DNA from: Romanomermis culicivorax
Taxonomy: Eukaryota > Nematoda > Enoplea > Mermithida > Mermithidae
Direction of reading: 5' to 3'
Assembly: GCA_963922205.1 (NCBI GenBank)
Contig: CAWUHX010000228.1
Coordinates: forward strand, 372,001-436,000
Length of the DNA stretch: 64,000 bases
The position numbers and the translations under genes were made by a program. The notes beneath the pieces are model-generated. The model was not told the origin of the DNA and made no database searches. It saw nothing but the letters and a program-made list of their open reading frames with translations. This document shows, piece by piece, positions 2,906 to 64,000 of this stretch. The first letter of the stretch is position 1; every line of letters starts with the position of its first letter.

Positions 2906-2940
2906 TTGGAGAATGATGCGACGTCGTTCATTTTTCGGGT

Positions 2941-16368: not shown

Positions 16369-16403
16369 ATGGAATCTTTGGAGTGAAAACAAATTTGAAA
16401 AAT

Positions 16404-16741: not shown

Positions 16742-16942
16742 ATTTTTCAAATTTACTTTCACTCCAGAAATTCCGTATAATTTCCATTTCTAAAAAGTCA
16801 GTAACTACATCATTGGTGTGCAGTTTAAAGCAGCAGGAACGCTGCTACTTGCCAAAGGTTGTAGGTTCACGATCACCAAGCATTGGAGTTGTATGCTGAA
16901 ACTCTCAGCCAAGGAGAGCACCTTAACCTGGGTTCACCCCAT

Positions 16943-17013
16943 GGTGTCATGGTCTAGTGGTGAGTACATCAGCCCAGAATGGCGACAACCCAGGTTCGAC
17001 TCCTGGCTACACC
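16943..17013 (+). repeat. tRNA-like SINE head, copy 3
   Basis: Best preserved copy: A box TGGTCTAGTGG, B box GTTCGACTC, T-arm CCAGGTTCGACTCCTGG, and ends GGTGT / ACACC that can pair as an acceptor stem. A T-run follows. Confidence 0.65.
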
Positions 17014-17033
17014 CTATTTTTCAAATCTACTTA

Positions 17034-18839: not shown

Positions 18840-21445
18840 TTTGATGAAAGATCTGATTCAACTTCATCTTGTTATTGTCAATTGTTTTTGTTGTGAAACT
18901 GTGTCTCTGTAGCTGTGAGACTGCATTTTATAGAGGAAACATTTACCGCAAGAGCTGCAATATAGAATATGTTATAATGTGCTTAGAATAGATTACAATG
19001 AAATTAGCTGTTTTACATTATTTACTTGGGAGCTGTGGATGTTGAATGAAACTGACCCTTGAGTTTAGGAAAAGGAAGTTGCAATAGTTCAACCATACCC
19101 TAACAAAACCAAGAACACTTTGTAACTCAATCTCGACTTTCCGGATACTCAACCAAGAAACTCTCCAGACCTGCCACAGAACACGTTGACGTCTGCAACA
19201 GAAGTTTCTACCCTAGCCTTCACTCTCCTAATCGTATGTGATCCTTCTCCTATGCTCACAAAACACAACAAGTTACCCTTGGTGAGATTGTATAATGTAA
19301 AACGGCATAAAATCTCCGAAATAAACAATAATGAAACACTACCAAAAATACATGGACAGTGGCCACAACATTCTACGTAAATTTACCATTCCTGCCACTT
19401 GTGCTGCATCCATGCCGCGTGCCCACCGACGCCTGGCGCGAGTTGAACACGTGCACCTACAGTAACCCTGATATATTCTTTTTTACCAGTAAACTTCATT
19501 CACTCTAAAATTTACATATGTTTTATTGAGTTCACTATACTTGGTTCAAACTAATGAAGTATTTCAAATCATACAAGGAAATTCGATCATCGATGTTTAT
19601 TTATTACACTCAGCACAGTCAACTGTGATCATCTGGGTGAACAAGGATATCCATTGTACGAGGCGATGATTTCGAAGAAGAAATAGTGCTGATGCTGAAA
19701 ATTCGCTATATGAAGGAGGTTGAACAATATATTGGCGAGTTTAAAACCCTAAACCCTCCTCGCCAATTTATGCATGGAATTCCGACTCAGATGACCCTTG
19801 AAAAAGTTTAGGTAGAAAATTCTACACTGAAAAATTAGAATGTGCTGAAAAATGCCAAAACCACGATTTATACACTTTTGGGATATGGACTTTGGGGTAC
19901 AACATCGGACTTGGAGAAAAATTTCCGGATAAACATTACTAAAATATGCACCAAAGACAAAGCGCTAGCTCCAGTCCATACACCCAGTACACCACCGACA
20001 TTAGCAATGATAGTATAAGCTTTGAATACAGGAGCGTATTCTTTAACAACATACTGTTCCCATGATGGCGTAACAAAAAGTATTTCTGTGCAGGAGAAAT
20101 CTCCATTGAAAATTTCCATACACTCCTTATTCAAGTCATCTGATGATAACCATAATTGGCTCAGTTCATTGAGTATATTGAGTCTAAAATTCCACTCGAA
20201 ACAATCTATGCCACGTTTTTCGATTGCCTTAAAATCCGTTGGTTCAATTCGGCACTGCCTTTCTCTATATTCCGGGTAATTCGACAATTCTGGAAGGATT
20301 TCTACTGCTACTATGTTCCGATTACTAATATCTTGAATTGAACGGAGTGGATTCATTGGTGGAATGATTAAAAAAAGTCGGTTGTTATTGTAATTATCAT
20401 AGTTTAGTGTTGCATCTAGAAACTCGCCCAGATTTTCATTCAACTTGATCAAAATAATATCACCATCTTCAGGAAATGGGCAATAGAAGTGAACTGAGTC
20501 ATGGAATTCAGCGAACTGTGCAAACATTCCATTTGAACAAAAAACAGGAACTTCGAATCTCACTAAATCTAACTATGTTTTAACTTTCTTTGCAGTCACT
20601 TTAGCACTATCTAATATGTCTCTTGATTGTGAAATCCATTCATTGATCAGCTTATTCCAGTCACTAATGTTCGTGGAGTTTCGCCATTTGAAGCGTTTCA
20701 CCAATTGAACAGAAATATTAGCAGATAGATTCAGTTTTATTGAAGCTTCTTCAACAGCTCTCCAGTCGATGGTGTCCATCCAATTAGTGAAAACTACAAT
20801 AATCTTCTTCGACTTCAATGTCTCTATCTCAAGTTCAGTAAAAGCCCTGTACTGTATGGTAAATCGAACATCAGAAACGATCCGACTAATTTCTCGGGCA
20901 ACCTGTACTGTTGCAAACGTCATCGTCAGGCAAGTTATGATCAGCCAAAACATGAATGATCTTTTCGATTTCGCTTTCGATATGTAGGATAAACCGTGCA
21001 ATGTACTGTCTTGAAAACTCGAAATTGCCATTATTAAGATATGATTCAATAAAAAATAATACAACAAAATAGCATCATAGGATACATTTTCACTATTAAG
21101 CTTTCCTCTTCAAAAACTAACCATTTCTATCTGAAGTTCTTTACAGCTAGAGCAATTGGAACTAGGCGGTATTCCAATATATTGCGACCTTTGCGTTTTC
21201 TAGTAGCATGAACGTTCTGATATCCGCATTAAGTGAAATTCAGGTTACAGGTAGCCACATTTTCAAAGTCCCAGATGATCAAAAGTTCAAAAAACAGGTC
21301 AGCACGAGAAAGATTTTTTGGTTGGATAGTAATTAATCACAGACAAGTAAGTAGTTCATACTTTTCCAATCATGACAAACTCCTATGTCATTCTCGAAAA
21401 TATCGTGATAAAAATTCATGGAAGCTAAGAAGATTAATTTCAATG
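18840..21445. repeat. Segmental duplication carrying the DEG/ENaC gene, copy 1
   Basis: Aligns with about 25840-28030 across 3' flank, gene and 5' flank. Copy 1 has about 465 extra bp (about 19013-19478) ahead of the shared TTTTTTACCAGTAAACTT; this is either an insertion here or a loss in copy 2. The 5' flank up to the shared GATTAATTTCAAT is also duplicated, so promoter regions were copied with the genes. Confidence 0.85.
19868..21031 (-). pseudogene. DEG/ENaC-type cation channel subunit, copy 1 (one in-frame stop)
   Basis: Same length as the open copy at 26462-27625 and aligned to it along the whole frame, without introns. The N-terminus has the channel family's His-Gly motif (QDSTLHGLSYI), then a first membrane segment; the C-terminus has the second membrane segment with the selectivity-filter tract VWTGASALSLVHI. 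A single TAG at 20573-20575, where the sister gene has TTT (Phe), splits it about 153 codons in. Unless the stop is read through or is a sequencing error, the product would be a one-membrane-segment fragment. The start is taken at MAISSF, 12 codons inside the longest frame, because that fits the third paralogue. Confidence 0.85.
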
Positions 21446-25839: not shown

Positions 25840-28030
25840 CTGAGAATGAGTTGTCTGATGAAAGCTTTGTTTCAGGTTCATCTAATTATTGTCAATTGTT
25901 TTGTGAAACTGCGTCTTTGTAGCTGTAAAAATGATTCCTAAAGTGGGAACGCTTAACACATAAAGTTCAATATGAAATATGTTATAGTGTTGTTAAATAG
26001 ATTAGAATGAAATTATTTAATTTCCACTAGTCTTTTTTACCAGTAAACTTTGTTTGCCTTATTATTTACATAAATTATATTAAGGTTTTTACATGTGGTC
26101 CAAACTAATACAGTCAAGCGAATTGGACAAGGAAATCCCACCGACAAATTTTATTCATTAAACTGGGCGTGGTCAACTGTGATAATATGTATAAACATGG
26201 ATATCCAATGGGTGACAAGACAAGTAATCGATAACTTCATCAAAAGAGTGCATACGTTTTTAAAAAATATTGCACTTTCGAAGAAGAAATCCTACAAAAT
26301 TTACTATTTAAATGAGGTTATACACTTTCTGGGCAAGTCCAAAACCCTAAACACTTCACGCCAATGGATGTATGAAATCCGAACTCAGCTGACTCATTGT
26401 TAAAATCAAGACATAATATTTTAAAAAATAGAATGTGCTAAAAAATGTTGAAAACCACAATTTATACACTCTTGGGATATGCACTTTGCGGTACAACATC
26501 GGATTTGGGAAAAATTTTCCGGATAAACAGTACTAAAAGATGGACCAAAGACAAAGCACTAGCTCCAGTCCATACACCCAGTATTCCACCGATATTAGCA
26601 ATGATAGTATAAGGTTTGAATAAAGGAGCATATTCTTTAACAGCATACCGTTCCCATGATGGCGTAACAAAAAGTATTTCTGCACAGGAAAAATTTCCGT
26701 TGAAAGTGTTGATACAGTCCATGTTCGAGCTGCCTGATGATGACCATAATTGGCTCACACCATTGAGTATCGTGAGTCTAAAAGTCCACTCGAAGCAATC
26801 TATGCCACTTCTTTTGATTTCTTTAAAATCCATTGGTTCAATTCGGCACATTCTTTCTTCATATTCCGGGTAATTCGACAATTCGGGAATGATTTCTACG
26901 GCCATCATCTTCTCATTACTAATATCACGATAAGAATGGAGTAGATTCGTTCCTGGAATGATTAACAAAAGTCGGTTGCTATTGTTATAATCGTAATTGA
27001 GTATTGAATCTAGAAATTCACCCGGCTTTTTGTTCTGCTTGATCAAAATGATATCACCATCTTCAGGAAACGGACAAGAGAAGCGAACTGGATCAGTGTG
27101 GCCGGTGAACTGTGCAATCACTTCGGGTGAACAAAAAACAGGAACTTCGAGTTTTACCAAATCTAAAAATGTTTCAACTTTCTGTGCAGTCACGTTGGCA
27201 CTATCCGATATGTCTCTTGATTGTGAAATCCATTCATTGATCAGCTTATTCCGGTCGCTATTGTTCGTTAAGTTTAGCCATTTGAAGTGTCTCACCAATT
27301 CAACAGAAATATTAGCGGTGAGATTCAGTTCGAGTGCTGCTTCTCCCACAACATTCCAGTCGATGGCGTCCATCCAATTAGAGAAAAATACAAAAATCTT
27401 CTTCGACTTTAATGCCTCTATCTCCACTTCAGTGATAGCCCTGTACTGTGCAGTAAATTTAACATCGGAAAGGATTTGACCAATTTCTCGGGCAACCTGT
27501 ACCGTTGCAAAAATCAGCGTCATGCAAGTTATGATCAGCCAAAATATGAATGACCTTTTCGATTTTGCTTTCGACATGTAGAACAAACCGTGCAATGTAC
27601 TGTCTTGAAAACTCGAAATTGCCATAGTTAAGCTATGATTCAGTAAAAAATGATACAACAAAATAGCATCATAGGATACACTTTAGCTCTCCTTTTCGCA
27701 AACTAACCATTTTTATCAAAAGTTTTGAACAGTTAGAACAATTGCATCAAGAGCGGTATTCCAAAATATTGCGACCTTTGCATTTTCTAGTACATTCAAG
27801 TGTCCTGAGTAAACGAAATTTAGGTCGCAGATAGCCACAGTTATTAATTCCCCGACGATCAAAAGTTGAAAAAACAGGTCAGCACGAGAAAGATTTTTTG
27901 GTAGGGTAGTAATCAATCACCGACATTTAAGTAGATCATACTTTCCAAATCATGATAAACTTCTACGTCATTCTCGAAAATGTCATGATAAAAATTTATG
28001 GATGGTAAAAAGATTAATTTCAATACGTTG
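25840..28030. repeat. Segmental duplication carrying the DEG/ENaC gene, copy 2
   Basis: Partner of 18840-21445. It holds the open-frame gene copy. Confidence 0.85.
26462..27625 (-). CDS. DEG/ENaC-type cation channel subunit, copy 2 (open, 387 aa)
   Basis: Predicted subunit of an amiloride-sensitive-type (degenerin/ENaC) sodium channel; such subunits form trimers in the plasma membrane. Seen: short cytosolic N-terminus with the gating-related His-Gly motif (QDSTLHGLFYM, residues about 7-17), first membrane segment about residues 24-48, an extracellular part of about 285 residues with several N-glycosylation sequons (for example NLTAN), and the second membrane segment with IGGILGVWTGASALSLVHLL, whose Gly-Ala-Ser tract is the selectivity filter. 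At 387 aa it is shorter than usual members (500 or more), and the ectodomain has only about six Cys (VFCS, FSCPF, MCRIE, IDCFEW, MDCIN, FSCAEI). The Cys-rich finger and thumb parts look reduced. Intronless. The longest frame starts at 27661. Confidence 0.85.
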   Translation of the reverse strand: MAISSFQDSTLHGLFYMSKAKSKRSFIFWLIITCMTLIFATVQVAREIGQILSDVKFTAQYRAITEVEIEALKSKKIFVFFSNWMDAIDWNVVGEAALELNLTANISVELVRHFKWLNLTNNSDRNKLINEWISQSRDISDSANVTAQKVETFLDLVKLEVPVFCSPEVIAQFTGHTDPVRFSCPFPEDGDIILIKQNKKPGEFLDSILNYDYNNSNRLLLIIPGTNLLHSYRDISNEKMMAVEIIPELSNYPEYEERMCRIEPMDFKEIKRSGIDCFEWTFRLTILNGVSQLWSSSGSSNMDCINTFNGNFSCAEILFVTPSWERYAVKEYAPLFKPYTIIANIGGILGVWTGASALSLVHLLVLFIRKIFPKSDVVPQSAYPKSV

Positions 28031-40958: not shown

Positions 40959-42113
40959 TTAGACTTTGTTGTCTTGCTCCTGCGCGATGCGTTTTTTGGG
41001 AAAAATCTTGGAGCACAGGACAATGATAAGGTGGACAAATGATAACACGCTTGCACCAGTCCATACGCCTAAAGCTCCGCCGATATTCGCAATAATAGCA
41101 TACAGCTGAAATATTTGGACAAACTCCTCTACCAAATATTTTTCCGGTAGACTGGACTCTATATGCAGGTAAGTACATGAGCCGTAAATATCATTAGTTC
41201 TGTTACAAAAGGGAATATTCGAAAATAATGCAATTTTCTTTTTTTCTAAAATATTTGGTTCCACATCCCAGTGAAAACAGTCGATACCGCGTTTACGAGA
41301 TAGCGACCAAGGCGTTTGGCACTCCATTTTTTCAGTGGTCGGATAATTGGATAATTTGGGCAAAATGTGCAGATGTACTAAATTTTCAGTGCCAAAATAG
41401 AAATGGTAACGATTATTCACTATAGAGTTTTGTTTGGTATTAACTCTCGTAAATAGAATAGAGAAAACGATGGTATAATCATTTCGTTCCTCGTTCGAAT
41501 AGAAATTAGAAATTCCACTATCCAAATCGCTTTCTGATTTTCGATTGCGATGTTCCATAATAATTAGACCCACTTGATGTGGAAACGGGCAACGGAAGTA
41601 GACGTTTGAGTCGATTCTGTTGAAAGTTGCGGATTTTCCGGCAGAAGCACACTTTACCGGAACTAAAGCTTGCGTCAAGTTGAGAAATGTATGGACTAAG
41701 TCGGTGGTCACAATAGAATCTTTACTCAAAACCCATTTATTGATATCGATGGACAATTGACTGTCGTTCTTCCATCCAAAACGTTCGATTATGTCGAAGG
41801 CAAGATCGATAGTCATGTTCAAAGTCGATGCTGATTCCCTGACTACATCCCAGTCGATAGTGTCAAAAAAATTCACGTACCTTACCGACACTTCCTCACT
41901 CCATAGCATTTGTAGTTCTGTCTTTGTAGCCGTCCTATAATGCACGTTGAACTGAGTATTCGACGAAATTTGTCGAATTTCATACATAACTTGCACCGTC
42001 GCATAAACCAATGCTGCAAAAGTGATGACCGACCAAAATGCCAGGGCTTTCTTCGATCTGGCTCTCGACATATAGTAGATTCCGTGCAATGTGCTGTCTT
42101 GTAGACCGAGCAT
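40959..42113 (-). CDS. DEG/ENaC-type cation channel subunit, copy 3 (384 aa)
   Basis: Third, more diverged paralogue of the channel genes at 19.9 and 26.5 kb; single exon, same strand. Shows the His-Gly motif (LQDSTLHGIYYM), a first membrane segment (FWSVITFAALVYATVQVM), an extracellular part with six Cys (KCAS, RCPF, ECQT, DCFH, FCNR, SCTY), the shared RGIDCFHWD block, and the second membrane segment with IGGALGVWTGASVLSFVHLI. The filter tract Gly-Ala-Ser is intact. Its length equals that of the others, so the short ectodomain is a family trait and not a truncation. A Lys/Arg tail (KKRIAQEQ) follows the last membrane segment. Confidence 0.87.
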   Translation of the reverse strand: MLGLQDSTLHGIYYMSRARSKKALAFWSVITFAALVYATVQVMYEIRQISSNTQFNVHYRTATKTELQMLWSEEVSVRYVNFFDTIDWDVVRESASTLNMTIDLAFDIIERFGWKNDSQLSIDINKWVLSKDSIVTTDLVHTFLNLTQALVPVKCASAGKSATFNRIDSNVYFRCPFPHQVGLIIMEHRNRKSESDLDSGISNFYSNEERNDYTIVFSILFTRVNTKQNSIVNNRYHFYFGTENLVHLHILPKLSNYPTTEKMECQTPWSLSRKRGIDCFHWDVEPNILEKKKIALFSNIPFCNRTNDIYGSCTYLHIESSLPEKYLVEEFVQIFQLYAIIANIGGALGVWTGASVLSFVHLIIVLCSKIFPKKRIAQEQDNKV

Positions 42114-49478: not shown

Positions 49479-49630
49479 AAACAAACTTATATAACGGATT
49501 GGTTATACGACCAGTATATATAAGGCGCACATGAAATATTAAAAACGAGCTTCAAAATCTTTTCGTCTCTAAACCAAAATACAACGAGTAATTTTTTTCT
49601 GAATCCTGGTGTGCAGGTGTCGCAACTTAT

Positions 49631-50148
49631 GCCTAAGCCTAAGCCTAAACCTTAGCCTAAGCCTAAGCTTAAGCCTGAGCCTGAGCCTAAGCCTAAGCCT
49701 AAGCCTAAGCCTAAGCCTAAGCCTAAGCCTAAGCCTAAGCCTAAGCCTGAGCCTGAGCCTAAGCCTAAGCCTAAGCCTAAGCCTAAGCCTAAGCCGAAGC
49801 CTAAGCCTAAGCCTAAGCCTAAGCCTAAGCCTAAGCCTAAGCCTAAGCCTAAGCCTAAGCCTAAGCCTAAGCCTAAGCCTAAGCCTAAGCCTAAGCCTAA
49901 GCCTAAGCCTAAGCCTAAGCCTAAGCCTAAGCCTAAGCCTAAGCCTAAGCCTAAGCCTAAGCCTAAGCCTAAGCCTAAGCCTAAGCCTAAGCCTAAGCCT
50001 AAGCCTAAGCCTAAGCCTAAGCCTAAGCCTAAGCCTAAGCCTAAGCCTAAGCCTAAGCCTAAGCCTAAGCCTAAGCCTAAGCCTGAGCCTAAGCCCAAGT
50101 CTAAGCTTCATCCTAAGCCTAAGGCTGTGCCTAAGCAAGGCTAAGCCC
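49631..50148. repeat. Interstitial telomeric repeat, (GCCTAA)n on + strand
   Basis: About 518 bp of hexamer GCCTAA (TTAGGC on the minus strand), the nematode-type telomere unit. The core is nearly perfect; variant units (CCTGAG, CCGAAG, CTTAAG, CCTAAACCTT) gather towards the ends, with one CCGAAG at about 49793. The C-rich strand is the plus strand, the orientation of a left chromosome end. It is embedded between ordinary sequence on both sides, so it is not the chromosome end itself in this assembly. Confidence 0.95.
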
Positions 50149-51479
50149 CTAAATTTTTTGACAATTGGGCAGATGGGCAATTTTTGGGGGGTTCGAGCAA
50201 AAAGAGAGTTACCAACATGCACAAATAAATGTCTGTTCGTAATAACAGGAATTAGTCAGTGTGATGGAATAAAAAATAAGATCGTGATGTTAGGGCGCGA
50301 ATTCATGCATTATTTCGGTATAACGTACATTCGATATGAAGAATCGATACATTCGGTATAACGATACATTTCGAATACCGATACACCGGGATGCCGATAG
50401 ACAACGGAATTCACTGCCTAGTTAAGGGATGAATTATTTCATTACACCTATAAATCTGTTTTCGAAGTAATGGGACGTTCGTGGTAACTGGACGTTCAGG
50501 GTGAGGATCGTTCGAGGTAAACATTCCATTTCATGGTCTGCGTAGGTCTCTATCATGCAGGCGAGTTTGGATTCTCGAAGAATATATATTGATACACTTT
50601 TGTGTAACCAATGCCTCTAAATTTGCAACATTTTTGACGATCCTACAATTTCTGCATTAACATCTCATCAAATGCGGAATCTGTATAACTCTTGACTTAC
50701 TGCCGCTACGTCCAACAATTCAAACCAACATTAGTCGATTTTATTTGGATTTCTGCACTTCTGATTTACTATATAAAATAAATCTGAAAAAATCGTCTGA
50801 AAATGTTTTTATTCAAAATCCTCTTGTGGAAATGTTTTACTTGATGCCAAGTCCGGACTCCTGGAACAAGGACTCTTCTGAATGTCTTTTGTGCAAATGA
50901 CCATTCCTTACCAGTGACTTTCTAGATTGGTGGAAGCATCGAGGGTCCATCTTGCACCAACGACTTAAATTTTTGGAAAGTTGAGAAGTCCAAATGTGCA
51001 AAAATCTGCTTGCACACCAAAGGACTACTGGGCAACCACAAAGTGTAGAAGATTTTTTCCTTTAGAAAGGTTCACCTTGAATTGAACCTTCTATAAGTTT
51101 ATTACATCAGAAATTCAGAATTCTAGTGATCTTGATAAACCTGATTCATACCTCACTTAGCTTTCTTCTGCCAATCGTGTAAGTAGAGAAGCCAACCCGC
51201 CTAAGAAAAACTGTGAGTGTTGGGTTTGCTTCATTCATGGAATGGCAAGTCCATACTTAGTCCTGTCACATTCATCACATCAATGTGCATGTTTTCACTA
51301 CATATATTGTTTTTGTACTTTGCTGTCATTTTCATTGTATTTTTATCCGTTTGATTGGGTGTCTGATCACATTTTTGTGCCCTCTGGCATAACTAATCAA
51401 TCACTTGTTTTCGGCACTTTTCAGCTCTGTTTCTCTCCCCTAGGCCTGATGTGATTCATGCCTATGTTCAAACGTTAGC
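50149..51479. other. Unassigned stretch right of the telomeric block
   Basis: About 50310-50400 holds repeats of CGGTATAACGATACATTCG-like words, and about 50475-50540 holds CGTTCGTGGTAACTGGA-like words. No gene recognised. The GC level rises towards the retroelement remnant at the right. Confidence 0.45.
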
Positions 51480-54369
51480 ATCAAACACACTCTAACATGC
51501 ACTACTTTTCACCCAAATCAAGAGAAGTCAGCACATCATCATCTCACCATCAACTCACAGATCATATAAACACCTCATCATGCTCTTGAGTTGTAGTTGT
51601 TAGGGAGTTTTGGGTTTGCGGCTGCCCCGCATTACTCTTTATTATCCACGCCCTGGCTCTCAATTACATATTGAATAAAATCGACCCTCGTCTACTGTAA
51701 GTACCCTTTTTGTGTTGTCAATCTGGGAACATCGTCCCCTTGTGTTTACTCATTCCCTCAGGTCACCCTCTAACAGCTTAGAGTGACCTCCTGTATCATC
51801 CTCAGGTTTTCTTCAAAGTTGACCTTCAAACAGAGTCACCTCTTTAAAACAACCTGTTGATGACACAAGTGACTCCTATCACATAGAAACACTTTAATCA
51901 ACCAACAGGCATATTTCTCATGATATACTCAATCTGGATTATCTCCATGAGACAACCTGTTAACTATTCAGGTGTCCACTGCTATGCATGCACCCCTCTT
52001 GCTCACAATACATGCCGAAGTCAAGCATACAGTCATCCCCTACCTACAGTACCCCTCTGGCTGCCATCCCTATGGCCAGTTACATATCCTTAGGTCACAA
52101 TGCCCTCATTGCTACTAATGGCTTTCCCGTATTGTGACATGGCAAGGCACATCCATTTCTCCAAAATCAGTATTCTCAGAATTATTACCGCAACCATGCA
52201 CAATCCAGAAACAACACTTGACCTACCCATCGGTATAACAATGCCATTAGTGGTTCGAACCAGCCCTCACAGCCAAATGTTCTGGATCTTGATGATGAGG
52301 TTCTTGCCATGCATCTGGGGAACAATACTGCGCAGTACTTTACTGTTTGTGTTGTTTCAGCCACCACTGCCACCCCCATGACTGCCACCTATTCATCGCT
52401 GCTGCTCTCCCACCACTGCAAGCAGCCCATGCATCCCCTCGGTCACCACTGCACAGGGATCCATGGTTAGCTGAATGCCACCCAGCACTGAAGGTTCCAC
52501 ACCACAACCACCACTGCCCTTGTGTGACACACATGCCATTGGTCACACTGCCACCATCACAGCAACAGCAGCCCTCATACACAGCCACACTGCACAACAC
52601 CCCTGCTGCTTCACTGATCAATCCTCATGGAGATTGATGAGTTTCCTGATTTTCTCCCAAAATCGATGATAGCTGAGACACCCTGTCTTACTCATTTCAC
52701 TGACAAAGTTTCTCCTTTTGAGGCCACCTGTCTGCATCCCACCCATTGCCCCATATACAGGCACTTGGGCAGATGTGGTCTCCAAGGAAGACGACCTCAG
52801 CACTGCACTGGAAGCCATTCGCAATATGGAACAGGGTGGAATTGATGCAGCTGTGGCAGACATCGACGCAACCATACCTGCCTCTATCCCCACTGCTGCT
52901 GCCACCACCAAAGCCAGCATTTCAGCGACTGCAGATGCTGCAGCAACGACCACAGCCACTGGTACTGCCGCTGTTGTCTATGATGACAACAACATCATAG
53001 AAGTGGATGATGTTCGGCCACCCACTCCAGGCGCTGGACTTCGAGTGTCAGCTGCTGCTGCCACCCATCACAGCTGCACTGCTGCCGACATCTTTGCCCC
53101 CAGCCCCAAAGATGATGCTGCCTGCCAGTAGTTACCACAGCCGCATAGGGCTGCTGGTGACAAATTTTAAAATTTAGTTTTTATTTGTTATAAAAATGAA
53201 TTTTGTGTTTGCAATGTTTTGCATTGCATCTCTCCACACTGCAGCACCCCTCCAATCTTTTCAACTTTGGGGCCTTTGAGGCAATGGTCATGCACTTGAG
53301 ATTCCTAAAAACATTGACTGCAAACCGCCACTCTCTTCCTGGATTCCACAGCATGCTAATGTCCTAATCTCTCTGTCTTTGCATTGCACTCTGATCCTTT
53401 GACAAGCCATGCCTGGAAATGCACACTCAAAATGCGCAAAATCTGCACCCATACTGGCTTTTTCGGCTCCAAAGGGATCACTGCAGACGTCTTCACTGCA
53501 CAGCTGCTGCCACTACTTGCTTGCGCACGTGCAGAGTACAAAAACGTATGACAACCACAAACTTGTGCTCATCCACCCAGGGTTCTATTCCACAAATCAA
53601 ACCCTCGATGTTGCTTATCAGTGGTGCTGCAAAGATTTTTGCACCTCTGTCACAAATTTTTTCATTAAGGAAGGTCAAGTCACCTCATGGAATGGCATCA
53701 CAACCCAAAGCACTCTTGGAGATGTTGAGGGACGTCCTCCCACTGCTGGCAAATGTACCACCACTGATAGCGTAATTATGTGGTCAGACAAAAACTTTAC
53801 AGCACAGTTCCCTCTGACCTATAAAGGCAATTACACTGTCTCTGTATCAAGTCTACATGTGATTTTAGATGACCTTGAGGTTGCTCTGAAGATCACTGAT
53901 AATGTCTTGTCCCATGCCAACATCTGCCCCCACCTCATCTATAACACCGGCACTGAGCAAGGAATTGCTTTGCATCTCAGCAAATGATTCCATTTTGAGC
54001 GCACCAGAATAGGGCAGACTGCAGATGCTCCAGTTGACCCAGGCAACACCAAATTAGACTACTTGGCAAAATGGATTCATGAACCCAAAATAGCATCTTT
54101 GCGTTATACATGGCTTGAGCTCTACTCTCACGGACAGTGCTATCTTGATCTGACTTGGCAGCTGTTATGCTTTGACTGCATGCTTGACGCCCATGCATTC
54201 CTTCAATGTAAAGACATCATGGCCCAGTTTACTGGCGAAGCACTAACCACCTGACCATGCAGAAAGGTCACTGAAACACACATCTATCACTCTTATCATG
54301 TTGGTGATGTGCGTTACAAATTTTTTTCAGTAGAAATTGACCATACACTCCGTTTTACCATTCTAGGAG
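51480..54369 (+). mobile_element. Retroelement 2 remnant (relative of retroelement 1)
   Basis: A less AT-rich stretch. At 51568 CATATAAACACC and at 51676 AATAAAATCG could be the TATA and poly(A) parts of an LTR. From 52300 to 53130 there are His/Pro/Thr/Ala-rich frames (for example 52718-53131, rich in Ala and Thr) in the place where retroelement 1 has its proline-rich stretch. Then comes the envelope-like region (53409-54366). It is cut at 54370 by the 5' LTR of retroelement 3, so protease and RT are not seen. Confidence 0.6.
53409..54366 (+). pseudogene. Envelope-like region, retroelement 2
   Basis: The open frame 53409-53987 and shorter downstream pieces match 6690-7600 of retroelement 1 in order: a Lys/Cys block, the FYSTNQTLDVAYQWCCKDF part with the same WCC-x2-xCTSVTN pattern, SWNG, and later a QFTGEAL block at about 54225. 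Signal peptide and membrane anchor are not preserved here. It is broken by stops and by the retroelement 3 insertion. That two diverged elements share it suggests it was a functional component. Confidence 0.65.
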
Positions 54370-54973
54370 TGTTGGGGATGTGCTTACGGCAGTAGCAATC
54401 CCACATCTATGCAAAATTGGTGAATCGACAAAGTTACGATGCCACCAAAAAAGAGAAAGGTGGTCATTCTTGCATTCTCGTAATTTTGGTGTGTCGTAGG
54501 CGAGTCGCGTTCGTTTTGTATTGTATTATTCTTTTTCGAATAGTAAAGGCAAGCGTCGACAGCCCGACACCCAAATTTACATATTATTAGTAATATTATT
54601 ATTTATTATTTATTACATTATTACTTGCGCATTAAGCGGAAGGAGGGAGCCGCATAACATGGGAGCCAAGCCAAGGTAAAGCCCCAGTTCCTTTGGACAT
54701 TATTATAGTGAGTTTTGTGTATTTAAGTAAACCTTTAGGAGGCATCTGGGGAGACCCTGAGTGCCCTTCGATTGCAAGAGTTAGAGTTTCCAGTTACTTA
54801 TTAGTGACTGAAGGTTGTGTTTATTTCTGATTAAGGACTGTTGCACTGTGTTTAGTTGATTGCTAATAGGAAGCTCCTTTGAGTGACCTACAGTAGTCAG
54901 TTGGATACAAGCCAATAGGACTTGAGTCATATTGCTGACATCCTCGGACTTCAGCAGAGATATAAACATAACA
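54370..54973 (+). repeat. 5' LTR of retroelement 3
   Basis: Starts TGTTGGGGATGTGC and ends ...ATAACA, the TG...CA form, about 604 bp. It is followed two bases on by TGGTGGCTTCTGACAC (54976), a primer-binding-site-like sequence. No second copy in the window confirms the ends, so they are inferred. The left flank is coding-like DNA of retroelement 2. Confidence 0.6.
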
Positions 54974-55067
54974 AGTGGTGGCTTCTGACACTTGCAATAC
55001 GGAAGAGCGCAGAGTCACTCGAGGTGTCACAAAATCTAAAGGTTTTTACAAAGACTTAGGACTCAAA

Positions 55068-56705
55068 ATGTCCAAAAATGCTGAGGATTTAGCCTCTGGT
55101 ACGACTTTACCGAGGACTCCGCCTGGTGTAAGGCATGATGAGATGGATAAATCTTTTCCACTGCCCGTGGTATCTAATACCACGAGCAAGCGGGAAGGCT
55201 CCGACTCAGGTGCCATAAGCCAGCGGGCTGAGGTAAAATTGGACCCGGTAAGTGCGCCCAATTCCGTAGCGCCCATAATGGCCAGTAATAATATCAATAA
55301 TATGGCCACGGCAAAGGAACTATTGACTGCCGATGATAGAGAGGCTCAATTATTGGCGCCTATCGATAGAAGGCCGAAATTGGCCCAGGATCATATTGAT
55401 CCATTTGATCAATTTAGAGAGGAACGTTTTCAACGACCTCGACAACGATTTGATACGTATCATCATGAATACGTCAACGAAAATTTGGATAATATTCGGG
55501 ACGATTACCGTCATGATCCATTGGACGATTTACGATTCGAAATGAGTCAAAAGGACGACGAAATTAGACGACTAAACGTCAAAATTGACAAAATGGCCAA
55601 TTCGATGGTCGGAGTCCAAGGACTATTGGAAAGATTCGTCCTGGATCAGAAAGAAAGGGATATCCAAGTGAGTAGGACTACAGATAGACCATTGCAAACA
55701 CAGGATATGTGTAGAACTTTGCCAATGACGTCTGCAACCTGTATTGCCAATGACCAAAGGTTACGGCAGATGGAAGCAGATGAGTCACAGCAAAAGTTCA
55801 CAGTCAAACCTACTGTGAAATCAAAGGCTTCTACGGAAAAACGGGCAACTGAACCGCTTGCTGTTCAAGAACAAGCAAGTCATATAGTTGCTCAATTTTT
55901 CCAAGAAGCTGATGAGGAAGCAGCAGGTAGTCATAAGGAAAGCAAACATACTACGTCGAAGCACAAACGATCCAAAAAATCCACACGAGGAAATTCATCA
56001 GATTCTGATGACTCCTCAGTGGATGGATTGGAGCCTACTGTGTCAGATATAGTGAAGGCTGTAAAGCCAAAGCTACTCCTTGATGACATGACTGAGACAC
56101 AAGTTCTCAGCTTCCTAAATGATTTAGAGGCAGAGTTTACGTCGGAGACTACTGATAAAATGAAGCTGGCTGCCTTACAAGTGCTTTCTAAGGGTGTACT
56201 GAAAGCTACTGCCAAAAGATTCAAAAGTTACGAAAAAGCCCGAAGGAAGTTGCTCAAAGTGCAAGCTCCAGATTCAAATGTCGGTATGCAAACAAGGGAG
56301 CCGATGAACATAAAGCAGGAATTTGATGAACCTCCAGTGGAATTCCTCAAGAGAATTAGTGTGCTAGTACATAGATTGTATCCTAATAAGACCAAAGAGT
56401 TCAGAGATCGTTTCATAATAGATACCTTTTTGTATAAAGCATCTGAAGAGTATCAGATGGAGTTGCTGGATCAGAGAGAGAAGTATGAAACATGGCATGA
56501 TCTAGCAGAGGATGTGCACAAGATTGATAAGCGGAACACAGCTGCTTATAAAAAGAGAGGAACTGTGGAATCTCCAATTGTGATAAATGAAGTGACGATG
56601 GGGGAAGGGCAAGCTGAAGTGGCTTATGTCAGTAGAAATAAATTTGGCAATGCCCCACAAAGGCAGTTTCAAAATAAAGCTATGGGACAGCAAGCAAGGA
56701 GATAG
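55068..56705 (+). pseudogene. gag: gag (capsid) of retroelement 3
   Basis: A 545-codon open frame from the ATG at 55068 (MSKNAEDLASG) to TAG at 56703-56705. The N-terminal half is charged, with a heptad stretch (RFEMSQKDDEIRRLNVKID). The C-terminal half has a capsid-type helical domain (FLNDLEAEFTS, PVEFLKRISVLVHRLYP, FLYKASEEYQMELL). The start was chosen over the upstream non-ATG extension. The frame continues past the TAG into the nucleocapsid part. Confidence 0.75.
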
Positions 56706-57185
56706 AAGCAAGCCCCGATCCTAGTGTCAGAAAAGAAGGATTCCGATACTTCTATAGAAGAGAATAACTCACAGGGGACTCAAATGGCTACTACTCCCCA
56801 AAAGGGAAAAGAGCCTGAGGAACCTAGCAGTGATTCTGTTCTAGCAAAGTTGTCACAGAAGATTGCCAAGTTGGCTCAATGTTATCAGGAGATAAGTCAA
56901 AAGACTGATGTTAAATTGAATGAAATTTCTGCCAAAGTTAATAAGGGTAAACCCCAAAAACCTGGTGGAAACGAGTTCAGGAAACCATATTGTCGATAAC
57001 ATAGAAATAATTCTCATGACACGTCCGAATGTAAAACCCTTCAATGGAAAAAATCACAAGGACGTAATTGGGATAATCGATATGGTGGAAACAGAGGTTT
57101 CAGGCAACAGTTTGGAGGCTTTAGAGGAGGATATGTTGGCAGGAGCAGTAGAGGAGCTCATGCCGTAGGTTATTATGGTGATACT
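56706..57185 (+). pseudogene. Nucleocapsid region of retroelement 3
   Basis: Same frame as gag: an acidic/Lys-rich spacer, then the Cys/His pattern YCR-stop-HRNNSHDTSEC in which TAA (56997-56999) sits inside a zinc knuckle, then a Gly/Arg-rich (RGG-like) tail before the protease. An RNA-binding role is inferred. Confidence 0.6.
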
Positions 57186-58136
57186 ATGGATTATGATACT
57201 TATCAACAGTTCATTGATTACCAGAATAGATTGCGGAGTGAGCAACTCTATATGGCACCACAACTGCCAGCCCCTAGCCAACAGCTGACGATCACAGCTC
57301 CACCTCAAGGTCAAGTTCAAATCAGTAACCCTAGCCCAAGTGTGCAAGCCATTTCCAGTAGTCAACCATCCACGTCGAGTCAGACAGAGTTGGGATCTGC
57401 TGGAAGTGTTAATAGCATTGCCACTACGGGTCAAGGTGTTAGTGAGATGAAATGGCCTGGAGTGTTGAAGTGTGCCATGATGAACGAAGATTATTCAAAG
57501 GTTACAAAAGTGTTCAAGCATGGGATAATTCCTAATCAGGAGGAACGATTAAGGTTTTCAAAATTTCCGCGAACTCTCCCATTTCACATTAATGTGACCC
57601 TATGTAATACTAACACCAAGGCTTTAGTGGATACTGGTGCTCAGTGTTCCATGATGTCTTCATGGTTTATTAAGGAAGGATTTGATGAAGAATATACCGG
57701 ATATCCTGAGATACTAAAAGTCACTGTTGCTGATGGTGCAGTAGTACATGCACATGGTTACATACAATTCAAAATGCATTGTGAATTTGGAGTTTTCTTG
57801 GTGAAGGCCATAATCATTCCTAATGCAGAGGAAAATCTCATAATTGGAACAGATTTTTTAGCACATCGGGATGTTGGAGCAGTGATAGATTTTGGTAAAG
57901 GTATCATGAAGCTCAATGGAGTTGAGAAAGCTATAAGTGTTGTACCTAAAGATCACGCGAGTCATATACAAGCTATTGATTGTATAGGGGAAGCACCTAT
58001 AGTACATTCAAGTCCTGAAGAGGATCAATACCCCAGGATCTGCCAATTAGGTATAGTGGTTCCAGTGGTATCATGTATGAAAGTATACATACCACACGGA
58101 ACTGATGTGCTTATTAAGGCAAGATTATGGGAATGA
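57186..58136 (+). pseudogene. Aspartic protease region, retroelement 3
   Basis: Pro/Ser/Gln-rich linker, then a retropepsin domain with intact active site ALVDTGAQCSMM at about 57624-57660 and the later strand ENLIIGTDFLAHRDVG. The open frame is closed by TGA at 58134-58136, but the same frame continues beyond it into the RT. Confidence 0.82.
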
Positions 58137-59445
58137 TCGTCTAAAACAGATCTGAATTGTTTGGTCATAGAAGGAAATAAAGAGGAAAAGAAATTCAGAG
58201 TTGATAGCACTCTGGTTGATGGTAAATGGGAAGACTTTGTTCTGATGATTTCGAATAATACGGGTTCTGGATGCCAATTGCAACCTAATCAGGTTGTAGG
58301 CTACTGTGACTCAATATTACAAGAAAATTCATGAGTATCAGACGTACAAAGTACGAGTTGTGGGATATTTAGTGTTGAAGATAATTTTAATGCCACTCCC
58401 AGAATGTCCGTGCATGATGCATTGAAATTTAGGGAAGCACTATATAAAATGATCTCCAAGGCTGATATCAATGAGGAATTAAAGGAAAAAGCTGTAGCAA
58501 AACTGTCTAAATACAGAGATGTTTTCAGCTTACCCAATGATCCCTTAACTACAACACCGTATCTTACGTGCAAAATTGATACTGGTAATGCAATGCCAGT
58601 GGCAAAACATTATTACAGAGCTCCCATTAACCAAAGATCAGGGATTAGAGCTCAAGTCCAAGACATGTTAGATAAAGGAGTTGTTGAACCCAGCGGGTCA
58701 CCATGGGCTGCTCCACTTTTCCTAGTTGGGAAAAAGGATGGTACCATGAGACCAGTTGTGGACATCAGAGGTATAAATGAAGTTACTAAGGACAATAGGT
58801 ACCCTATACCTAGAATGGATGATTATTTGGATTGTCTAGGTAATGCCAAATTTTATACCACCTTGGATCTAAAGTCTGGATATTGGCAAGTCCCACTTGA
58901 GGAAAGTAGCAAAGAGAAAACTGCATTTATATGTCAGGAAGGCCTATATCAGTTTGAAGTTATGCCTTTCGGACTTAAAAATGCACCTGCAGAATTTCAG
59001 AGAATGATGGAGAGAGTATTGCACTGTCTAGTCTGGAGAGTCTGTTTGGTTTATATTGATGATATCATTGTGTTCTCTAAGACTTATGAAGAACATTTGG
59101 AGAACTTAGAATTGGTCTTGCAAGCTCTTCGGAAAGCAAAGCTAACACTTAAACCGGAGAAGTGCGAATTTCTTCCAAAAAGAGTTCATTTTCTTGGACA
59201 CATACTGGACGAAAATGGAATCTCATCAGATCCGAAAAAAGTGAAGGCGATTATGGAATTCGAATTTCCCAGTAGCATTAAGCGTATGCAACGATTTTTG
59301 GGGATACTGCAATGGTGTAAGAAATTTATCCCAAACCTTGCAAATCTTGCAGAACCATTGTATAAGCTTACCACTACAGGAACAAAGAAGTTCCGAGCAA
59401 CAGAGGAACATCGCCAAGGGTTTGAAGAACTGAAAAAAGCACCTC
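58137..59445 (+). pseudogene. pol: Reverse transcriptase, retroelement 3
   Basis: After a linker with TGA at 58332-58334, the RT is open from 58335 to about 59445. Signatures: PLFLVGKKDGTMRPVVDIRG, FYTTLDLKSGYWQVPL, QFEVMPFGLKNAPAEFQRMM and the catalytic YIDD at 59052-59063, all intact. Then come the thumb and connection (GHILDENGISSDPKKV, QRFLGILQWCKKFIPNLA). A frameshift near 59445 breaks the join to RNase H. Confidence 0.9.
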
Positions 59446-59446
59446 A

Positions 59447-59944
59447 GTGCCATTTCTACGGTATCCTGTTTTGGATGGAACTGCGGAGTTCATTCTCCAA
59501 TCAGATGCCAGTGGAACCGCACTGGGAGCAGTACTTTATCAGAAGACTAAAGATGACCAATGGGTAATAGCCTATAGCAGCCGAATCCTTAAGGAAGAAG
59601 AGAGGAAGTGGTGTGCTACAGAGCAAGAATGCCTAGCGGTTGTCTATGGTCTTAAAGTTTACCGGCACTATTTGTTTGGACAAAAAGTATTGATCAAAAC
59701 TGATCATAAACCTCTTTTATCTATGAAAGTTAATACTCAAACCAATGATAAATTGAAAAGATGGTATTCCATTATAAATCAATTGAATCATAGATTGGAG
59801 TACGTCCCTGGTAGACAAAATGCAATGGCTGATTTTCTCTCAAGGAAAGATGAACCCGAAGACGCTAAGGATAAGAACCCCCAAAATGGGAATATGTCTT
59901 CAAAATTCAATTTCGTAATTTCAGAACTCAAACCAATGAAATGA
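59447..59944 (+). pseudogene. RNase H domain, retroelement 3
   Basis: Open in the second frame: ILQSDASGTALGAVL (first catalytic Asp), then WCATEQECLAVVYGLKVYRH (catalytic Glu), IKTDHKPLLSM (catalytic Asp) and EYVPGRQNAMADFLSR. It removes the RNA strand during reverse transcription. The domain itself is complete; only its frame relative to RT is wrong. Confidence 0.87.
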
Positions 59945-59954
59945 AAGCCAAATA

Positions 59955-60664
59955 TTGGTACAACAATTTCAGAGGATAAGAGACGAAGAAATTGAAAGTA
60001 GAGATGGAAAAATTGTCACCGAGCAGACCAAGGAATTGACGGATATTCAGGAATTGATGGTAACAATGGACAATATTGCACCGACTGCCAAAGATATATT
60101 GCAGAGCAGAGATGAAATGCAGAAGCTTACGGTAGTTGATGCAGTCACAACTAGAAGACAAGCAAAACTTCAGGATCAGTGTGCAGGAAATCAAGAACCA
60201 GGTACATCTGTACCAATTGATCCTGAAAACATTGCTTGGCTTTTCCCAAATAGAGAGAAAGAATTTGAAGAAGTGGAAGAAGTGGAAAATGGAGAAAAGG
60301 ATGATGATAAGATCAATTATCCAATTGATCTAAAGGTTATTGCTCAATTGCAAAAAGAAGACACTAATCTTACCCCAATTGGGGAAAGATTAGGGGTCAA
60401 AAGCACTATGAAGTATCATAGTGGATTCTATGAGGATAAGGAGTTGTTTATAGGGAAACTGAGGCACGTTGCCATGATCAGATCGTGGTCCCGAATTCCC
60501 TCAGAGACAGTATTCTTCACCAATATCACAGAGCCGTTATAATGACACACCAAGGGTTCAAAAGAACTCTGAGTGTTGTCAAACAGTGATTCTGGTGGCC
60601 TGGCTGCCAAGTGGCTACTCCCGGTAAAAGCTTTATATCCCCATTGATACCCATTATACCGGAG
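59955..60664 (+). pseudogene. Pol linker and integrase N-terminal part, retroelement 3
   Basis: A charged linker (60240-60320 is Glu/Lys-rich), then YPIDLKVIAQLQKEDTNL and the start of the integrase zinc-binding region (HQGFKRTLSVVKQ, stop, FWWPGCQV) in a shifted frame. The second Cys pair of the HHCC zinc site appears lost before the insertion of the miniature element. The target duplication GGAG occupies 60661-60664. Confidence 0.65.
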
Positions 60665-60849
60665 TGTCACGTGTCGCACGGCCGTACATCACCCCTTTGT
60701 AGCTATTGCAACACTGGCTCGGTAGTTCAATGGGTAGAACGCTGCACTGTAGTCAACGAGATCCGGGTTCGAATCCCGGTCGAGCATTATTTTTCGAACA
60801 GTGTTTGGCGATGGTTACGATGACAATGCGTTTACCCAATTACGTGTCA
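60665..60849 (+). repeat. TRIM left LTR (185 bp)
   Basis: Differs from the right LTR at 7 of 185 positions with no gaps, by direct comparison. Contains the tRNA-like unit at 60716-60786. Confidence 0.88.
60716..60786 (+). other. tRNA-like sequence with Pol III boxes in left LTR
   Basis: A box TAGTTCAATGG (60723-60733) and B box GTTCGAATC (60767-60775) match the consensus fully. Acceptor-like GCTCGG (60717-60722) pairs with TCGAGC (60780-60785), the D stem is GTTC/GAAC, and the T arm is CCGGGTTCGAATCCCGG. TTTTT at 60790-60794 could end transcription. The anticodon arm (around CTGTAGT, GTA by position) does not pair well, so a working tRNA is unlikely. Confidence 0.75.
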
Positions 60850-60863
60850 TGGCGAGACTTGGA
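60850..60863 (+). other. Primer-binding-site-like sequence of TRIM
   Basis: TGGCGAGACTTGGA begins directly after the left LTR; the TGG start matches the CCA end of a tRNA primer. The primer tRNA was not identified. Confidence 0.55.
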
Positions 60864-60923
60864 TTGGTCCCACATTGGTGGGCTGCAGAACCTGCATCTT
60901 CAACGGACGAGGTCGTCCTTCTT

Positions 60924-60939
60924 GCAAGGGGGGGGGGAA
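60924..60939 (+). other. Polypurine tract of TRIM
   Basis: GCAAGGGGGGGGGGAA directly before the right LTR, the position of the plus-strand primer in LTR elements. Confidence 0.7.
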
Positions 60940-61124
60940 TGTCACGTGTCGCACGGCCGTACATCACCCCTTCGTAACTATCGCAACACTGGCTCAGTAG
61001 TTCAATCGGAAGAACGCTGCACTGTAGTCAACGAGATCCGGGTTCGAATCCCGGTCGAGCATTATTTTTCGAACAGTGTTTGGCGATGGTTACGATGACA
61101 ATGCGTTTACCCAATTATGTGTCA
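60940..61124 (+). repeat. TRIM right LTR (185 bp)
   Basis: Same length as the left LTR, starts TGTCAC, ends GTGTCA. Followed by the GGAG target duplication. Confidence 0.88.
60991..61061 (+). other. tRNA-like sequence with Pol III boxes in right LTR
   Basis: A box TAGTTCAATCG (60998-61008) and B box GTTCGAATC (61042-61050) keep the consensus despite substitutions between them; T-run at 61065-61069. One acceptor pair is lost (GCTCAG). Confidence 0.72.
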
Positions 61125-61977
61125 GGAGGGTCCCTTCGATATTGTGTCTGTGGACATAGTAGGGATTGCTCCCTTGAGGGAATGTCACCCATATGTCATT
61201 GTCTTTCAGGATTATTTCACTAAATGGGTTGAAGCTATATTGATTCCTGATCAGATGGCTGAAACCATAGTGGATGCATTCTTAGAGCATGTGATATTTA
61301 GGTACGGTACCCCAAGGAAACTTCTTAGTGATAATGGATCTGGATTTAATTCAGATCTTATGAAAGCAGTCTGTAAACTGTTAGAGTGCAGAAAAATTTT
61401 CACAACAGCATACCACCCACAGGGTGATGGTATGGTTGAGAGATTTAACCAAACTCTAATAAAGCAGCTGCGAAAAGTTGCTATTGAGGATAACAATAAA
61501 TGGCCAAGGTACCTTAGTGCAGTGGTATTTGCATATAATGCCACACCCCACACAGCAACGAAATGCTCGCCATTTTCACTGTTGCGGGGGCATGAAGCAA
61601 ATTTTGGTATCAATTTCACTGCTGCACTTAGAATAGTCATGCCTAATGACTATGAGGCTTACAAAGATGTTTTGACTACCCATCTTACAAATTTGTATGA
61701 AAGTATTGCCGAAAACATACAAAAAGCCGCTAAGGACAGCAAGAAATATTTTGATAACAAAATTAAAACTTCTGGTTTTAAAAATCAAGATTGGGTTCTG
61801 TTGAAAGTAGACAGACAGAAAAAATTGGGGTTACCTTGGCAAGGACCATATATCATCATCGATGATAAAAGATTGAAAGACAATGTGCTCACAATAGCGC
61901 ATTGGAACAACCCGTTTAAAAAGCAGGTCGTATCGGCAAGTAGGCTAAAACACTTTCGATACGAAGGTACCAGATGA
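61125..61977 (+). pseudogene. Integrase catalytic core and C-terminus, retroelement 3
   Basis: DDE integrase core: first Asp in SVDIVG (codon 61153-61155), second in LLSDNGSGF (61330-61332), Glu in GDGMVERFNQT (61438-61440). This gives 35 residues between the last two, the D,D35E pattern. The C-terminus has the WPRYLSAVVFAYNATPH and FSLLRGHEANF blocks typical of Ty3/gypsy. Open through to TGA at 61975-61977; the frame then runs on for 37 codons to TAG at 62086-62088. The triad is intact, so decay here is recent or slight. Confidence 0.88.
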
Positions 61978-62088
61978 TCTCGACACAAAATGTCGCAGGT
62001 CTTCCAGGATACTCCAGTTAACGCAACTGGAAATCTTGAAGAGACCGAAGATCATCCAGTCGTTATTTCTGTGTCTAAAAATTTTTAG

Positions 62089-63196
62089 TGGAAAATGCCG
62101 TATACTGTATTTTATGTCAATAAAATTTTTATTTTTTGTGTTATTTAACCGATTTATATTCGTTTAATATCTTTTTAAAATTTGTGTAGCGAAGGGTCAA
62201 ATTTTCAGAATAATATTGTTAATTTGTACACCTGACCCTAAAATTTTTGGATTACATTTTGGGAGGTTTACGACCAATTTTCATTCTCAATTTCAAAAGT
62301 CGTGTTTTTCCTGTGCTCCGCGTCGCACAAATCTTTTCGAACAAAATTTTTTGTCCAGCCCAAGGACCCGATAAAATTATTTTTGGTAATTTTGTATATT
62401 GTATTGATATTGAAGTAACGATGAATGTTCTTTAACATTTTGTTTACTTTAGAAGATACAATGCGAAATTTAGAAAAAATTTTTCAAAAAATTAAATTTC
62501 AATGTCAAAATTAGGTGTCACGCCTTTCGCACGAAATTATTGCGCGCACGCCGACCACATTAAGGCGGGCCAACCGCAAGGCCGCCAAAACAATTGTTAT
62601 TTTTTGACTGACGGTAAGTTTTATCTAATTATTTCTTGGTATGTGGGACGAATTCGCCCATTTAGGTGTCTTAGGAGTGATTTCTTCACGCTCAATTTTC
62701 TGAATGGGCCAACCAAGGGGAAAAGGAGTTCGAAGAAAAGTTTCTTAAAAATGTTAGGATAGGTGAAAAGAAAAAACCTAATGGATTTACGGCCCTAAAA
62801 AAGCCAAAATCTAATGGTTTTTACCTTGGATCCGATTCCGAAGCATTTATTTTTGGTTTTATTAAAGCCCCTGGTTTACTAAATTCATTTCTTGGATTAA
62901 TTAAAACCTTAATTGGTTATTTATTCATTATTTAATTTTGGTACCAAGGCGTGAAGTTATCGCTAGGGTAAGTGGTAAATTGACAGCAGCCGATGTCGAG
63001 AAGCGAGAGGTGGTGCAAATGTGAGGTTCCTGAAAAATTGGTGTAGCATTTGCGTTAACCACCGGGCCTGCTTACTTTATGACTTTGACACCTAACCTCA
63101 CTTAATTAATTTATTTTTCCCCACGCTAAATCTTTTTCTTAATTTGGTGCCAGTCAAAGTTGATTATTTAATTGGTGGTGGTGGCCTAATGCCTGA
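62089..63196 (+). other. Stretch upstream of the exonuclease gene, possible 5' exons
   Basis: No 3' LTR of retroelement 3 is seen. Two plus-strand frames could be exons of the downstream gene: 62502-62608 (starts MSKLGVTPFARNYC, ends at a GTAAGT donor at about 62609) and about 62690-62935 (contains KEFEEKFLKNVRIGEKK and FYLGSDSEAFIFGF). Splicing between them and the exonuclease exon could not be worked out. Treat as unproven. Confidence 0.35.
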
Positions 63197-64000
63197 TTTA
63201 TAAAGGGTCAAGGGGCAAATTCTTTTTCATTTTTAAACTACAACATCAAGCGTCTGGTCCGCGTCGGAGAGATCGAACAATGGTCCGCCGGTGCGATGGG
63301 TTATTGGCCGCAACGACCAATGGAACCCGAACGGGTCCACGGTGGCAACCTCGAACCATACCTGAAGCAATTGGCCACAAGCCAGTTTCGGGGGCTAGGC
63401 ATTGTCGGATTTGACGTAGAAAAGGTCAAGAAGACCGAGGTATGTATCATACCTTATAAGGTAGCGATCCAGAACCCGGAAGGGAAAGAGTTCGCTAGGC
63501 TGGTGTCATTTGCACATATAGATGGTTCCAGCTTTGTCATCGACCTTACAACATTGAAGCCGCAGGAATGGGATCTTTTGATTTCATTCCTTTCATCGGT
63601 GGATTGTTTCTTGGTCGGTTTCAAAGTTGTGGACGATCTAGTTGCAATTTTGAACGTCTATGGATCCCGGTCAGGGGCCTCGGCTCATGATAAGATGAAA
63701 ATTATACAGGCCCGTATACTCCAAGGATTTGGAAAATATTGGGACTGTGGAATTTGCATCAGAATGATGACGGGGCCCATGGCCAATCACACTCGTGATT
63801 TAGGATTGTGTCCTGGAAACCTTGGGTTAAAAGGACTTTTCACCAAATTTTACTTGGCTGATGTTGGCAAATATCAATGCGACTTCGGTGACAAAAAAGT
63901 TCGAGAAAAGTTCTTGGCCCCCAAGATTCAGGAGAAAGAAATTGTGTATGCTGGCCTAGATGCCTATTACTCAATTGCCGTATTTTTGGGGTTTTTTCAC
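63197..64000 (+). CDS. 3'-5' exonuclease domain protein (DEDDy type), runs off the window
   Basis: An uninterrupted frame to the window edge. Exonuclease motifs are in order: IVGFDVEKV (motif I, Asp and Glu), LVGFKVVDDL (motif II Asp) and YAGLDAYYS (motif III, Tyr-x3-Asp). Spacing and strands (SFVIDLTTL, LGLKGLF) fit the family of WRN, EXD and nematode MUT-7 exonucleases, which digest RNA or DNA from the 3' end with two metal ions. All four metal-binding acids and the Tyr are present. The frame is open from 63197, but the true exon start is probably nearer 63251. No Met precedes the GAMGYW block at about 63290, so upstream exons are expected. The first 150 bases are clearly more GC-rich than the surroundings. 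Confidence 0.82.

Follow-up and report, generated by a model that had tools for sequence, protein, structure and literature searches.

A Helenus-type miniature LTR element with tRNA-like units in its LTRs in the mermithid nematode Romanomermis culicivorax, and a proposed Pol III–Gypsy cycle for its mobilization

Inside a degraded Ty3/Gypsy element of Romanomermis culicivorax, a mermithid (enoplean) nematode that parasitizes mosquito larvae, lies a 460-bp insertion in which the ends of an LTR retrotransposon are combined with two tRNA-like units. This raises the questions of what kind of element it is, and of which polymerase might make the RNA from which it is copied. We addressed these in a stretch of 64,000 nucleotides (hereafter the window; contig CAWUHX010000228.1 of GCA_963922205.1, C228:372001–436000) and in the R. 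culicivorax assembly as a whole (359,112,060 bases in 595 contigs). A COX1 frame from this assembly shows 97% identity to R. culicivorax COX1, ahead of two congeners at 84% and 82%. In our reading, to which we give a probability of roughly 0.8, the insertion belongs to a multi-copy, non-autonomous family of miniature LTR elements (TRIMs) of the Helenus type (TRIMp3), with a cycle that probably joins transcription by Pol III to mobilization by Gypsy proteins.

The element spans positions 60665–61124 of the window and has the form LTR–90 bp–LTR. A repeat search recovers two gap-free copies at 60661–60849 and 60936–61124 (96%), within which the LTRs proper, each of 185 bp on the + strand, are 60665–60849 and 60940–61124; they are identical at 178/185 positions, leaving 7 differences. 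Their termini are of the TG...CA type (TGTCAC...GTGTCA), and the sequence together with a comparison of the ends places GGAG on either side as a target-site duplication (TSD; 60661–60664 and 61125–61128). The middle, likewise read on the + strand, opens with a primer-binding site (PBS), TGGCGAGACT (60850–60859), complementary at 9/10 positions to the 3' end of tRNA-Arg(TCG) plus CCA, runs through a remaining non-coding internal region (60860–60925), and closes with a G-rich polypurine tract (PPT), AAGGGGGGGGGGAA (60926–60939). A stop codon in each of the six frames marks the whole element as non-coding. Every one of the components by which a preliminary description had defined a 460-bp TRIM is thus found in the sequence. 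In folding, the internal region does not surpass shuffled sequence (z 0.51), and therefore we claim no packaging hairpin; in the rest of the window, none of its matches exceeds 17 nt. Further afield, a 33-bp piece of the LTR has 0 exact matches among viral contigs, and the element has no match among phage records.

The sequence that received the insertion is a Ty3/Gypsy-type coding stretch on the + strand (54975–61977), with several broken frames that retain pieces of the protease, reverse transcriptase (RT), RNase H and integrase, and the element sits inside the integrase. When 120 integrase homologues were compared with each flank separately, 27 matched both flanks in order; the gap in residues equals the available codons in one of these (P0122), is 3 off in two (P0006 and P0074), and is off by 14–15 in the other 24. 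Insertion inside the integrase is therefore shown and an exact empty site is not, since the gap is exact in only 1/27. No long repeat that could represent the LTRs of this host Gypsy is shared between 50301–55200 and 61901–64000.

A genome search with the LTR returned 79 matches from the best 40 of 445 candidates. Grouping them gave 40 places, among them that of the window copy, all of which we extracted; because the copies taken were the ones closest to the query, the sample leans toward near relatives. Two LTRs are present at 25 places (the second being incomplete in L019 and L042), three at 7 and one at 8. A corresponding search with the internal region gave 40 matches from the best 40 of 298 candidates, some of them outside the 40 LTR places. 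Among 39 internal regions, 37 measure 85–92 bp and two measure 63 and 67 bp, and all 39 begin with TGG. Once 5 of the 40 places with incomplete outer ends are dropped, exact 4-bp duplications flank 26 of the remaining 35, whereas 2000 shuffles of the right ends gave 0.96 on average and never more than 6. Such duplications flank 6 of the 8 single-LTR places, as expected of solo LTRs; of the other two single units, L015 continues into PBS-like sequence and L012 is without an exact duplication. By the preliminary description, a TRIM would gain support from many genome copies of the form LTR–middle–LTR that have short target duplications and the same tRNA boxes. This is what we see (32/40 places with two or three LTRs), in place of the single units alone that would have spoken against a TRIM. 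The family extends beyond this sample: a 33-bp stretch that surrounds the B box described below has 202 genome matches at up to 3 mismatches, with 0 for the reversed control.

Two features bear on the age and turnover of the family. Four two-LTR copies (L014, L037, L038 and L043) have identical LTRs (187/187), which suggests recent movement. Further, L010 (on C72) and L030 (on C3) have 500-bp flanks that are 99.2% and 98.0% identical and carry three and two LTRs, respectively, a pattern that fits retained haplotypes or a duplication, differing through unequal recombination. As a separate observation, the right flank of L015 resembles the left flank of L036 (94% over 446 bases).

The claim of a tRNA-like unit in each LTR is borne out by the Rfam tRNA model (RF00005, gathering score 29), which is exceeded in both: 38.9 bits for the unit at 60716–60787 in the 5' LTR and 30.3 bits for that at 60991–61062 in the 3' LTR, both on the + strand. 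ARAGORN calls a tRNA, tRNA-Thr(TGT), for the 5' LTR unit only. Scored against the consensus patterns for the Pol III boxes, the 5' LTR presents, in order on the + strand, an A box, TAGTTCAATGGG (60723–60734), a B box, GGTTCGAATCC (60766–60776), and a run of five Ts that resembles a Pol III terminator (60790–60794); the matching T5 run of the 3' LTR (61065–61069) is the putative end of the genomic RNA. Against shuffled sequence, the two units have only a slight folding advantage (z −1.02 and −1.26). In the 5' LTR unit the D stem, the T stem and the larger part of the acceptor stem persist, and the canonical anticodon stem is lost, with at best 3/5 pairs.

A similar picture holds across the copies examined. 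The Rfam gathering score was passed by 25 of the 26 LTR units scanned (from 12 of the 40 loci), the single failure being in L027. Of the 76 full LTRs, 71 show the A-box pattern, 70 contain an exact copy of the 11-nt B box, and 72 have a run of at least four Ts within 35 nt 3' of the B box, with 3 of the 76 having no relaxed B-box match from which to measure. The D stem is paired in 76/76 at each position, the T stem in 71–75 and the acceptor stem in 70–76, with the exception of its first pair, which is paired in 0/76. By these stem measures the unit is not a working tRNA.

The LTR–PBS–PPT–LTR order, the 4-bp TSDs, the solo LTRs, the three-LTR arrays, the tRNA units and the tRNA-Arg(TCG) primer site establish the element as a TRIM. 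The preliminary description had further held that no animal counterpart with tRNA sequence was known; this is wrong, as Kojima (2024) described Helenus (TRIMp3), tRNA-bearing TRIMs whose hosts span six animal phyla as well as fungi and a plant (PMC10886601). Helenus elements are 311–1263 bp long, bear a PBS and PPT between their LTRs, have 4-bp TSDs in animals, where Gypsy is reported to mobilize them, and in most families show the box motifs TRGCY, YGG and GGTTC (PMC10886601). The R. culicivorax element resembles them in that each of its LTRs contains a tRNA-like stretch with an A and a B box, and likewise in its PBS, PPT and 4-bp TSDs, a length within their range, and a short non-coding middle. 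It also shares with them solo LTRs (reported in Helenus for fungal families), tandem arrays (e.g., LTR-11_DR), and a tRNA body mostly judged not to be functional. Of the box motifs, GGTTC is present and YGG takes the form CGG in the 3' LTR and most of the 76 (GGG in the 5' LTR of the window copy), whereas the A box differs in beginning with TAGTT in place of the usual TRGCY. The other difference is the host phylum: Nematoda is absent from the Helenus Table 1, and the string "nematod" from the main text (PMC10886601). A search by title and opening of the abstract found no report of a tRNA-bearing TRIM in a nematode. We hence take Nematoda, which is missing from that table, as a new host phylum for this known kind of element, as far as the literature was searched and with the published families compared by their description.

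Among other TRIMs, the plant Cassandra elements likewise carry a small-RNA Pol III unit and a terminator in their LTRs and are reported to form short arrays of about three LTRs (PMC7215508, PMC10886601). They differ in their plant hosts and in that their unit is 5S rRNA where ours is tRNA sequence; 5S rRNA has no Rfam match in the window at gathering score. Ajax of nemerteans is an animal TRIM with Pol III promoter sequence in its LTR, yet it is 5S-derived and has 5-bp TSDs (PMC10886601). The biv-TRIM of bivalves is reported to have LTRs of ~200 bp, an internal region of 77–80 bp and LTR–internal arrays, which recall the dimensions and arrays seen here; unlike our element, it has no LTR tRNA unit and no clear PBS in the accessible part of its description (PMC6934838).

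How might such an element be copied? We infer that Pol III transcribes the full-length template, through the following plausible steps. The internal A and B boxes would recruit Pol III, which would initiate a short way ahead of the 5' LTR's tRNA unit, pass the T5 run of that LTR and terminate at the matching T5 run of the 3' LTR. The resulting RNA would then carry a tRNA-like unit at both ends, serving as the repeated R region. This RNA would be packaged by the proteins of an autonomous Ty3/Gypsy element, which would use tRNA-Arg(TCG) as primer for its reverse transcription and insert the product with a 4-bp duplication. A difficulty is that Pol III ought to halt frequently at the first T5 run. 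Nevertheless, we take leaky read-through, followed by a stop at the second T run, as the most likely course because the same layout is reported for Cassandra: its RNA is described as extending from within the 5S unit of the upstream LTR to within that of the downstream LTR (PMC10886601), and its arrays are said to yield multi-element transcripts by presumed read-through of the LTRs (PMC7215508). The narrower proposition, that this is the first nematode Helenus, with the tRNA unit plus T run coinciding exactly with R, a leaky Pol III and tRNA-Arg(TCG) as primer, we hold to be unlikely as a whole.

The most serious competitor accepts the same TRIM and assigns its genomic RNA to Pol II, with the tRNA unit either giving rise only to a side RNA of ~90 nt or persisting as a neutral SINE relic in the LTR. 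We regard it as a tentative alternative, appreciably less probable than our own reading. The T5 run after the tRNA unit, kept in nearly all LTRs, speaks for it insofar as Pol III would often stop in the 5' LTR; further, transcripts of biv-TRIM, with no tRNA unit in the accessible description, are reported from shotgun transcriptome data (PMC6934838). Against it, a Pol II promoter would have just 51 bp of LTR to occupy ahead of the unit, and the Rfam tRNA cut-off is still passed by 25/26 of the units scanned.

The conservation of the boxes cuts both ways. On a tree of 64 distinct LTRs, the number of changes per site is 1.25 in the A box, 0.55 in the B box, 0.60 in the T run and 1.74 between the boxes, with 1.37 overall. 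The A box, with 15 changes, evolves at about the average rate (random-site p 0.47), and 98 of 174 comparison stretches have as few changes or fewer; this lack of special conservation favors the Pol II alternative. In contrast, the B box, with 6 changes, is modestly slower (p 0.066) and lies among the slower stretches, 6 of 175 being as low or lower, which counts against that alternative; the T run stands at p 0.24. A cruder count of minority bases gives the B box as the lowest of the 175 stretches (1/175), while the A box is equalled or beaten by 59/174, itself included. Within this genome, box conservation is thus weak evidence, modest for the B box and none for the A box. The preliminary description had seen a hint of use in both boxes staying intact while bases between them changed. 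The boxes do match, but only one of the 7 LTR differences (60735) falls between them, another (60732) lying at a free position inside the 12-nt A-box span, and the hint itself proves weak on the 64 LTRs. The better argument for use, and against a Pol II template, is that the boxes are reported to be kept across distant Helenus families (PMC10886601).

The two remaining explanations fare far worse. A tRNA-derived SINE, with the pair of units as a chance tandem, would account for the A and B boxes, the T run and the single units at 8/40 places, but is refuted by the two or three units around a near-constant middle at 32/40 places and the exact TSDs at 26/35, together with the LTR-type TG...CA ends, the PBS, the PPT and the solo-LTR-like duplications of 6/8 single units, and we give it a negligible chance. 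An equally negligible chance falls to a duplicated pair of real tRNA genes, for, although Rfam scores both units as tRNA and ARAGORN one, the window unit has no 5-bp anticodon stem, the first acceptor pair is broken in all 76 LTRs, the anticodon position reads TAT in 72, TGT in 3 and TAG in 1, and the flanks are LTR sequence with TSDs.

Returning to the Helenus-type TRIM with its proposed Gypsy partner, the primer site may offer a lead to that partner. The first 10 PBS bases match tRNA-Arg(TCG) plus CCA in full in 34 of the 39 internal regions, and of the first 18 bases, 18 match in L018 (first middle), 17 in L019 and only 12 in 29/39. A pattern derived from L019, which has a short middle with a long tRNA complement, matched 8 genome places. 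At these ARAGORN called tRNA-Arg(TCG) at three and tRNA-Arg(CCG) at one; at L019's own place it called the two LTR units tRNA-Ile(TAT); and at L049, L053 and L055, where the complement lies in other sequence, it made no call. In these last three loci, extracted at greater length as L060, L061 and L062, the match to tRNA-Arg(TCG) covers 43, 42 and 41, respectively, of the initial 44 bases. In these and in L019 (1188–1254) the complement thus runs for ~40 nt and reaches the anticodon loop, where the usual primer site has 18 nt; this might reflect copying past the T loop, even of the whole tRNA 3' half, or the use of a 3' tRNA half as primer. The two of these loci that were scanned for domains are clearly retroelements: L061 has paired LTRs (95% identity) and an RNase H match, whereas L062 matches gag, RT and RNase H, with a Ty3 protease match slightly below the cut-off, and showed no LTR pair in its 9.9 kb. 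Through this primer complement only, L060–L062 are candidate helpers; among them and the window, no autonomous element shares more than the PBS with the TRIM.

L062 (C320:77100–87000) is unusual in another respect. Its long open frame (~1102–7368) includes a match to a Monjiviricetes-type viral fusion glycoprotein (PF24664, 64.7 bits), placed between the gag and the protease/RT part, an uncommon gene order. In the window, the ORFs at 6464–7102 and 53409–53987 have a Cys-rich stretch in common (29/52), and the former matches the glycoprotein-bearing frame at 12/26 residues.

With this element, Nematoda joins the phyla in which TRIMs carry tRNA sequence, and a tractable host is at hand, a long-read assembly of R. 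culicivorax being available and adult RNA reported as sequenced (PMC10879605). The copies with identical LTRs and the pair with two versus three LTRs (L010/L030) are material for asking whether Pol III makes the template of an LTR retrotransposon. On a practical note, the number of tRNA genes counted in this genome may be too high, as the family's tRNA-like unit has matches at 202 places.

The window holds several other features. A fold-back repeat at 16362–17035, with both inverted and direct repeats, has tRNA-like arms in opposite orientation and T runs near the arms; the arm at 16405–16476 on the − strand scores 35.1 bits with the Rfam tRNA model and is called tRNA-Ser by ARAGORN. Three DEG/ENaC-type ORFs lie on the − strand (19868–21067, 26462–27661 and 40959–42113), of which the two scanned, 26462–27661 and 40959–42113, match Pfam ASC. 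The region 19868–21067 is a 79% repeat of 26462–27661, and the ORF at 26462–27661 is 72% identical to a Romanomermis protein over 35%; a search of solved structures for the DEG/ENaC-like ORF gave 0. A long simple repeat at 49569–50361 yields LR/LS repeat ORFs on both strands. Elsewhere in the assembly, L057 (C117:992573–993922) has a COX1 frame that is open in the invertebrate mitochondrial code and stands inside a numbered contig, and it is either a nuclear copy of recent origin or mitochondrial DNA that has been joined in.
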